From Gilvibacter sp. SZ-19 (GTDB lineage: Bacteria > Bacteroidota > Bacteroidia > Flavobacteriales > Flavobacteriaceae), in contig NZ_CP019333.1 of the NCBI RefSeq assembly GCF_002163875.1, positions 1,432,864 through 1,496,863 of the forward strand: a stretch of 64,000 nucleotides of DNA. Direction: 5' to 3'. The position numbers and the translations under genes are program-made. Positions 15,280 to 49,458 of the stretch are shown one piece after another; positions within the stretch are counted from its first letter, which is position 1, and each line of letters starts with the position of its first letter. The notes under the pieces were generated by a model, which saw only the letters and a list, made by a program, of their open reading frames with translations, did not search any database and was not told where the DNA came from.

Positions 15280-15287
15280 TACCTTTG
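15280..15287 (+). promoter_or_regulatory. -7 box of the small membrane protein gene
   Basis: TACCTTTG is an exact consensus match directly behind the terminator. It overlaps an upstream in-frame TTG at 15285, which argues against that codon as a start and for ATG at 15309. Confidence 0.65.
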
Positions 15288-15308
15288 TTTAAACAACTTC
15301 ATTTAACC

Positions 15309-15752
15309 ATGTATACCACCGTTCAGTTTTTGCATTCGTATTGGGCCTATTTGGTCGTTCTTGTTGTCTTTTTGGCCACCTTCAATGCCTTGCTAGGCTT
15401 TTTTAGCAAGCGTGACTATGGCGCCAAGGATTTCCGCATTTCTTTGTTCGCGCTTATAGTGACGCACATACAACTCCTGATCGGCTTGGTGCTTTATTTC
15501 GTTTCTCCGCTAGGATTCCAATCCATTAGCGCCAACGGTATGGGCACAGTTATGAAAGACTCTGTACTGCGGTTAAATGCCGTGGAGCATCCAACGGTAA
15601 TGTTGATCGTTGTTGTTCTAATCACCATTGGCTACTCCAAGCACAAGAAGAAATTGGTTTCCAGACCTAAGTTCAAGACCTTGATGATCTTTTATACCCT
15701 TGCGTTTGTGCTTTTATTGAGCCGTATTCCTTGGGGGCAGTGGTTTGATTAA
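15309..15752 (+). CDS. Four-helix membrane protein, flavobacterial
   Basis: 147 aa with four hydrophobic helices (about 8-30, 44-66, 87-107 and 119-138) and short loops. The first helix begins LHSYWAYLVVLVVF, a later loop holds NAVEHPTVMLIVVVL, and a Lys-rich loop reads SKHKKKLVSRPKFKT. It is similar to small flavobacterial proteins sometimes labelled cytochrome b-like because of His residues within helices (LHSYW, THIQ, EHPT), but no heme binding can be shown. The start is taken at ATG 15309, since the upstream TTG falls inside the promoter. Function unknown. Confidence 0.85.
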   Translation: MYTTVQFLHSYWAYLVVLVVFLATFNALLGFFSKRDYGAKDFRISLFALIVTHIQLLIGLVLYFVSPLGFQSISANGMGTVMKDSVLRLNAVEHPTVMLIVVVLITIGYSKHKKKLVSRPKFKTLMIFYTLAFVLLLSRIPWGQWFD

Positions 15753-15929
15753 GCTTATGGCGCATGCTGCTGCGCAGCACCGGGCTTTCCACACTACACG
15801 GTAGTTTGTTGCAATCCCTTGCGCGGGGAGTAAAGAATCATTAACAATCACACTCTAGCTTTTACTTTCAAGGACAAGTCCTTGCACCTTCTTTCACACT
15901 TTTTTCCATCGATGAAACTACTGAAGAAG

Positions 15930-15948
15930 CAATGTCCAGTGGACATTG
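15930..15948. repeat. 19-base palindromic hairpin
   Basis: Nine-base arms CAATGTCCA and TGGACATTG around a single G. Its right arm runs into TTGAGATTCA (15946-15955), which can also pair with TGAATCTCAA at 16063-16072. Confidence 0.85.
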
Positions 15949-15974
15949 AGATTCAAGTACGGCAAAAAAATCTA

Positions 15975-16118
15975 GCGACGCTCGCTCGGCTTTGAAAACC
16001 TAGCTACCCTCAGCCACAGATTCATTGAAAGCTCCTGAGCCTCACGGCTCAGATCGGCACAATGAATCTCAAGCCCAACTGCTGCTAGCTGGTTTTCTAC
16101 AGCCTCGCTCGGAGTCGC
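15975..16118. repeat. Nested inverted-repeat structure, candidate structured RNA or cruciform
   Basis: Five helices nest around one axis: GCGAC (15975-15979)/GTCGC (16114-16118); GGCT (15988-15991)/AGCC (16101-16104); GAAAACC-T-AGCTA (15994-16006)/TAGCT-GGTTTTC (16086-16097) with one bulged T; AGATTCATTG (16018-16027)/CAATGAATCT (16060-16069); CTGAGCC (16035-16041)/GGCTCAG (16046-16052) closing a TCAC loop. A direct repeat CTCGCTCGG occurs in both outer arms (15981-15989 and 16104-16112). The strand of any transcript is unknown. Confidence 0.7.
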
Positions 16119-16157
16119 GAGAAAAAACTATTTTTAGTTCAATATTCAATTAGTTGA

Positions 16158-16511
16158 ATGAGTCATAGAATAAAAATTCATGAATCTGGTGTAATTGTAA
16201 AAATCCAGCCTGGGATTTATAGAGTCTATGCATTGGGAGGGTGGAAAGTACGTCTTGGAGCTTTCTCGATGTCGATAATAGATCAAAAGACGGGGAATGA
16301 GATCAATTCAAAACAAGTTAAGTTTGGAGTGCAAGACCGTCGACATGGAGTCAGGGTAAAGCAAATTGCAACATTAAGTGTACCCGAATGGCGCGACTAT
16401 GAAGTAAGATTTCATAATCCAAGTGATCTTCAAGTTTATCATGCAATATTCTTTCCTGGTTTATTTGAAAAAATTTTAGATAATAAACAGCTAGAGATTA
16501 GCTTCGGCTAA
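16158..16511 (+). CDS. Orphan protein of unknown function, AT-rich
   Basis: 117 aa, no signal peptide and no membrane helix; alternating hydrophobic pattern suggesting a beta-rich fold (GVIVKIQPGIYRVYALGGW, QIATLSVPEWRDYEVRF). I do not recognise the family. Codons are more AT-rich than in the neighbouring genes (ATA, AAA, AGA, TTA), suggesting recent acquisition. It sits directly downstream of the palindromic stretch; a hairpin overlaps its ATG and a near-consensus -7 box (TATTTTTA, 16129-16136) lies 21 bases upstream. Its stop overlaps the stop of the convergent 46-codon gene. Confidence 0.65.
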   Translation: MSHRIKIHESGVIVKIQPGIYRVYALGGWKVRLGAFSMSIIDQKTGNEINSKQVKFGVQDRRHGVRVKQIATLSVPEWRDYEVRFHNPSDLQVYHAIFFPGLFEKILDNKQLEISFG

Positions 16512-49257: not shown

Positions 49258-49458
49258 TACCTTATTTTGAAGCTATTTAACCCATTCAATACTGGTTAAA
49301 AAATTACCCTTTCCGCACCTGTTCTTTGCCTTTTTATTGGTTCGTAGCGCTGCTATGCACCGCAAAAAAGGCTTCAAACAGTCACAAAAATGGTTAATTT
49401 TCACTTCAGTTTGAATAGATTAAATAACTTCTATTCTCTCAGCTAAAAATTTAAGGTC

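Follow-up and report, generated by a model that had tools for sequence, protein, structure and literature searches.

Mosaic of dispersed palindromic repeats with a variable nested-hairpin body in an intergenic region of Gilvibacter sp. SZ-19

The closest described systems are the REP, BIME and REPIN repeats, which combine stems of 20-40 nt with a GT[AG]G or CGTC tetranucleotide and with RAYT (REP-associated tyrosine transposase) transposases (PMC3733652, PMC6006769), and the atypical structures of the Bacteroidetes TnpA-Y1 subclass 2.6 genes, which lack the GT[AG]G tag and have copies in the host genome (PMC6006769). The locus described here is a gene-free gap of 405 bp (15753-16157) between the end of a 155-aa ORF (15752) and the start of a 117-aa ORF (16158), in a 64,000-nt stretch of the Gilvibacter sp. 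SZ-19 genome that is hereafter called the window. Like REPs, the gap harbors a dispersed palindromic repeat in intergenic DNA, in this case consisting of a hairpin 'head' and a larger hairpin 'body'. However, the 18 units read in the SZ-19 genome carry CTAG between head and body instead of the REP foot GTAG/GTGG (or CGTC); the nested stem of the body spans 144 nt as opposed to the 20-40 nt of a REP hairpin; and the RAYT gene of this genome is flanked not by this repeat but by another hairpin. Thus, the repeat resembles REPs in kind but fails the tests that define them, and is accordingly set apart from the classic REPs. With moderate confidence, we favor its interpretation as a non-autonomous, mobile-like DNA hairpin repeat, similar to REPs or MITEs, and prefer this to a gene or a terminator of the usual kind. 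A search of the open-access literature yielded no description of this repeat family, which is apparently undescribed in the open literature.

The gap is built as a mosaic of palindromic, non-coding elements that also occur dispersed over the genome, in the order R1, small hairpin, head (R2) and body (R3) (Table 1). The stretch matches, piecewise, 26 other places in the 3.10-Mb SZ-19 genome, 14 of them at E <= 2.5e-5, and it is these piecewise matches that delimit R1, the CAAGGAC hairpin, R2 and R3. Positions 15895-16118 are one unit of a 'head-CTAG-body' family, in which a short head hairpin is followed by a nested hairpin of about 145 nt with conserved internal loops. A head-body unit is present at 18 of the 26 head-pattern matches in this genome, with R3 as the body in nine cases and bodies of several other types in the remaining nine. 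The 117-aa ORF is probably outside the element. Elsewhere in the window, between two ORFs at 49290-49450, there is another nested palindrome with TTCAAACAG, which has the top inverted-repeat count in the window and is possibly a related body without a head. At L022, L027, L100 and L105, additional small palindromes recur in the surroundings of the units, for example, those of the ATGTCATCTCGATAC...CTCGATGACC and CAATGTCCAGTGGACATTG types.

Table 1. Features of the repeat mosaic, its flanking genes and the RAYT gene of the same genome (window coordinates unless a locus or contig is named; paired ranges are the two arms of a helix)
Feature	Position	Strand	Description
155-aa ORF	15285..15752	+	flanking gene outside the element; marks the locus; homologs in 96/100 Flavobacteriaceae genomes
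R1	15759..15829		dispersed palindromic repeat GGCGCATGCTGCTGCGCAGCACCGGGC...CAATCCCTTGCGCGGGG; matches in the SZ-19 genome, e.g. at 2607367 and 2194555
Small hairpin CAAGGAC-AA-GTCCTTG	15869..15884		recurs upstream of other heads
R2, head	15895..15975	+	CACACTTTTTTCCATCGATGAA...CAAAAAAATCTAG; ends in CTAG
Perfect 9-bp palindrome CAATGTCCA-G-TGGACATTG	15930..15948		within the head; interrupts the head hairpin of the window copy
CTAG	15972..15975		junction of head and body; found in all head-body units read in SZ-19
R3, body	15975..16118	+	nested hairpin; covariance-model match 15964-16121, 167 bits; nine copies in the SZ-19 genome, including this one
5-bp helix	15975-15979/16114-16118		
4-bp helix	15988-15991/16101-16104		
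12-bp helix	15994-16006/16086-16097		7+5 bp, one bulged base
4-bp helix	16011-16014/16081-16084		
10-bp helix	16018-16027/16060-16069		perfect
7-bp helix	16035-16041/16046-16052		apical
117-aa ORF	16158..16511	+	no Pfam match at E 0.001; beside the locus in G000 (SZ-19) and congener G002, absent in congener G001
RAYT gene	L030:4700-5440 (G000:C1 about 1300700-1301440)		flanked by inverted hairpins CTAGCGCCAGACTCCGTCTGG

A previous sequence-only reading of the window had proposed nested helices with stems of 4, 5, 7, 10 and 12 bp within 15975-16118. All of these are present, the 12-bp stem consisting of 7 and 5 bp around one bulge, and small extra helices accompany the six listed in Table 1. 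When folded as RNA, the segment 15966-16126 (161 nt) reaches -61.8 kcal/mol, with a z-score of -6.2 against 200 dinucleotide shuffles, which is lower than the energy of any of the 397 tiles of 161 nt that make up the window (lowest tile, -59.4). The same reading had counted at least six perfect inverted repeats in the 405 bp, a number that holds if 6-bp stems are included (about eight at >=6 bp, with loops of up to 45) but drops to four when stems of >=7 bp are required; at least four such longer stems occur in 3% of the 405-bp segments of the 64 kb, that is, the density is raised but not unique.

Sequence and model searches of the genomes identified nine full copies of R3 in SZ-19, 14 in the congener G001 and six in the congener G002; the same search found none in a third congener, G003, and a member of another genus, G025, has one weak copy. 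The genome-wide copy count and the check for compensatory changes had both been proposed by the sequence-only reading, which had named the lack of homologs with conserved stems as the result that would speak against it; the opposite was found, with the stems covarying strongly. In particular, double changes affect 13 of the 33 base pairs among the first nine R3 copies. In the alignment of 31 R3 matches, which was fitted to the model and is biased towards it, with the weakest few rows fitting poorly, doubly changed pairs increase to 24 of 33, 92.6% of the cells are paired, and the covariation is 0.391, compared to 0.137+-0.009 in shuffled alignments (reached in 0 of 500) and a maximum of 0.067 in slid controls. 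An asymmetric internal loop of 3/11 nt is kept while the central stem takes clearly different sequences. Simple palindrome repair should have removed this loop, so that its retention next to changing stems argues against such repair and suggests that selection acts on the shape of R3.

Compensatory change does not decide between an RNA and a DNA hairpin. An RNA, in the form of a structured non-coding RNA or RNA element whose body is transcribed, whose nested stem works as RNA and whose R3 is possibly read from the minus strand, appears unlikely but would fit the strong covariation, and some signals point to the minus strand. When the alignment is limited to its 28 best rows, the plus strand shows 34 A-C against 6 G-T cells of the wobble type, A-C here corresponding to G-T wobble on the minus strand; by column types, the numbers are 14 and 5; and CTAG with 4-7 T comes after the R3 hairpin on the minus strand. 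However, the asymmetry by column types has a p-value of 0.06, the folding z-scores of R3 are equal on both strands (p=0.75), and the bodies from other genera show a tendency towards the plus strand (p=0.07). Furthermore, the copies occur in both orientations to the neighboring genes, and sister species differ in the body at one locus. The comparison with Rfam, also proposed by the sequence-only reading, gave no match at the gathering score, Flavo-1 included, and at E values of up to 10 returned only two chance matches of eukaryote/archaeal type. Given the inconsistent strand signal and the lack of an Rfam match, RNA is rated as a rival and not as the main reading; the structured RNA that had been listed among the candidates is thus not demonstrated.

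The head points to a wider family. The head covariance model came out without structure, and the head was searched with a 47-nt model of sequence only, which matches at least 113 of the 299 Flavobacteriaceae genomes and at least 99 of the 236 genera. In a phylum-wide draw of 395 genomes, at a stricter E value of 1e-6, eight genomes match the head, SZ-19 included, and one of these belongs outside the family. In other genera, related heads with CTAG are followed by differing nested hairpins: 18 of 28 bodies have z-scores below -2 (median -2.5), GAACTC is located 47-51 nt after CTAG in 13 of 24 bodies (5% in shuffled sequences), and TCAAACA is found in 16 of 24 (2% in shuffled sequences). R3-like bodies recur in G203, G240 and G025. 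The dispersed copies in SZ-19 and its congeners, together with the widespread head, strongly support a flavobacterial palindromic repeat family, another candidate of the sequence-only reading. Heads also occur in tandem, with seven in G203 and four in G260 at a spacing of roughly 320-540 bp. Within the G203 arrays (L328:15498-17880 and L325:1300-2550), R3-like units are interleaved with palindromes of the GTCATxCCTGCC...GGCAGGxATCCA type.

Comparison of the congeners reveals different bodies at fixed loci. At the window locus, G001 and G002 retain R1 and the head, and CTAG is followed by another palindromic composite with the leftover last ~20 bp of an R3-like end; in G003, a related head precedes CTAG, and the body is of a third type. 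In total, four species of one genus have three bodies at this position. At a second locus, R2-R3 is common to SZ-19 and G001, and G002 has another unit. At a third one (1400365/712160), read by eye, the body present in SZ-19 recurs in G001 only as a tail, placed behind R3. No clean empty/filled pair that would capture a single event for R3 at base resolution was found in the loci compared. Exchange at a locus could also be explained without an enzyme if heads recombine with each other or template switching takes place. Taken further, this would make the repeats inert palindromic relics that spread and are exchanged only via homologous recombination, tandem duplication and template switching between similar heads, with no dedicated enzyme. 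Such a scenario accommodates the tandem arrays in G203 and G260, the chimeric units in which tails of older bodies are left, and the fact that no enzyme was found, but seems rather improbable in view of the stems and the fixed internal-loop geometry that are maintained across copies and genera, and of the dispersed, near-identical units with a common start in the genome G218.

These G218 units are the best sign of a possible recent dispersal. A single unit gives 47 matches, five of which, the query included, have lengths of 347-571 bp at 96-100% identity; besides the query, four cover most of the unit (347-359 bp, 96-99%), and the others are partial, many being located at contig ends. Twelve matches begin at one base (query position 102 or 103), their flanks differ, and by eye no target duplication is obvious at the junctions. 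The outer ends of this ~347-bp unit differ from those at the window; in the window's genus, the copies are old and diverged.

In 28 other genera for which the stretch downstream of the ortholog of the 155-aa gene was read, no intact head is present behind this gene. A scan of 29 other-genera loci for the head detected only weak partial matches in L380 (E 0.028) and L391 (E 0.0038); in the 29th locus, L390, the stretch covered is still coding, and the region past the gene lies outside it. Most of the 28 loci have a short hairpin terminator after the gene and, at a distance of no more than a few hundred bases, coding sequence similar to the exonuclease-phosphatase gene that the window carries on the opposite strand; the neighbors differ in a few loci. 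Judging from these comparisons, the repeat at this locus characterizes the window's genus among the genera sampled, and insertion in this genus would be a simpler reading than loss elsewhere. The idea that this gene end has been a slot since before the origin of the genus was rejected, given the lack of an intact head in the other-genera loci.

The presence of a hairpin terminator in most of the orthologous loci of other genera is also what could be expected if the repeat were a gene-end element, that is, a terminator (perhaps bidirectional) or an mRNA 3' stabilizer that replaced the ancestral terminator after the 155-aa gene. In the gene context of 28 copies, according to simple ORF calling, 17 are between tandem, eight between convergent and only three between divergent genes, in both orientations, and the rarity of the divergent context agrees with such a role, as does the A run that flanks R3, often along with a T run. 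Nevertheless, we consider this role quite unlikely: the element is much larger than a terminator, its conserved internal loops and head are needless for termination, the window copy ends in GTCGCGAGAAAAAA, with no T run, and termination could arise as a by-product of insertion.

Under the favored interpretation of a non-autonomous, mobile-like repeat, the hairpin would act at the DNA level, as the form recognized by an enzyme that works in trans, candidates for which are a recombinase and an HUH/Y1-type transposase with specificity for single strands. This putative enzyme would move or exchange the units, yielding small non-autonomous elements that are tolerated near gene ends. Much more tentatively, the units might constitute a Flavobacteriaceae-wide non-autonomous class in which the CTAG head serves as a docking site and the bodies are swapped, cassette-like, by a putative single-strand-acting enzyme. 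The search for enzymes, which covered the class represented by the Y1_Tnp profile, found none tied to the repeat, and the 18 head-body units read in SZ-19 are far fewer than the copies of typical REPs. The suggestion of the sequence-only reading that the stretch is the end of a mobile element came close, although not exactly so, because head and body together have the appearance of a complete small unit, one that sits in intergenic sites and is swapped there.

It is very unlikely that the units are classic REPs or REPINs mobilized by RAYT. SZ-19 does encode one RAYT (NCBIfam NF047646, 96.8 bits), and the inverted hairpins CTAGCGCCAGACTCCGTCTGG that flank its gene have the CTAGCG start in common with R3 (CTAGCGAC), which can be taken as a lead only. 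By contrast, Y1_Tnp has no match in G001, a genome that contains 14 R3 copies and 20 heads; across 35 genomes, RAYT and the head show no association in their presence (8/16 vs 6/19, Fisher p=0.32); and the stem-loops listed beside the RAYT genes of relatives do not look like heads. On these grounds, RAYT as the mobilizer was rejected as a present-day requirement.

If the interpretation as a mobile-like DNA hairpin repeat is right, more than a third of the sampled Flavobacteriaceae genomes carry a palindromic repeat in which the body is variable at fixed loci whereas the fold and the internal-loop geometry are kept. Such a repeat would account for part of the palindrome-rich intergenic DNA in this family and would be a good subject for the study of the survival and movement of long DNA hairpins in bacteria. 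It would also be a warning against taking covariation alone as proof of RNA.

Among the known systems, Flavo-1 and other Rfam RNAs are likewise flavobacterial and structured, but have no match here. The repeat resembles integron attC sites in being a long hairpin with imperfect pairing that could be active as a single strand in folded form; however, its two ends read CTAGCGAC/GTCGC, and no GTTRRRY/RYYYAAC pair is seen by eye. MITEs share the small size, the non-coding and dispersed character and the palindromic structure, and differ in that neither a target-site duplication (by eye, in G218) nor a parent transposase (in the Y1_Tnp search) was found for the present repeat. The structures of the TnpA-Y1 subclass 2.6, which were compared by description only, adjoin the transposase gene (PMC6006769), whereas here none was found tied to the repeat. 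From REPs, BIMEs and REPINs, the family is distinguished by the nested stem of about 145 nt, CTAG, the separate head hairpin, the small number of copies and the lack of an association with RAYT; what it has in common with them are dispersed intergenic palindromes, a tetranucleotide beside the stem, the absence of an obvious target duplication and the formation of mosaics with other repeats.
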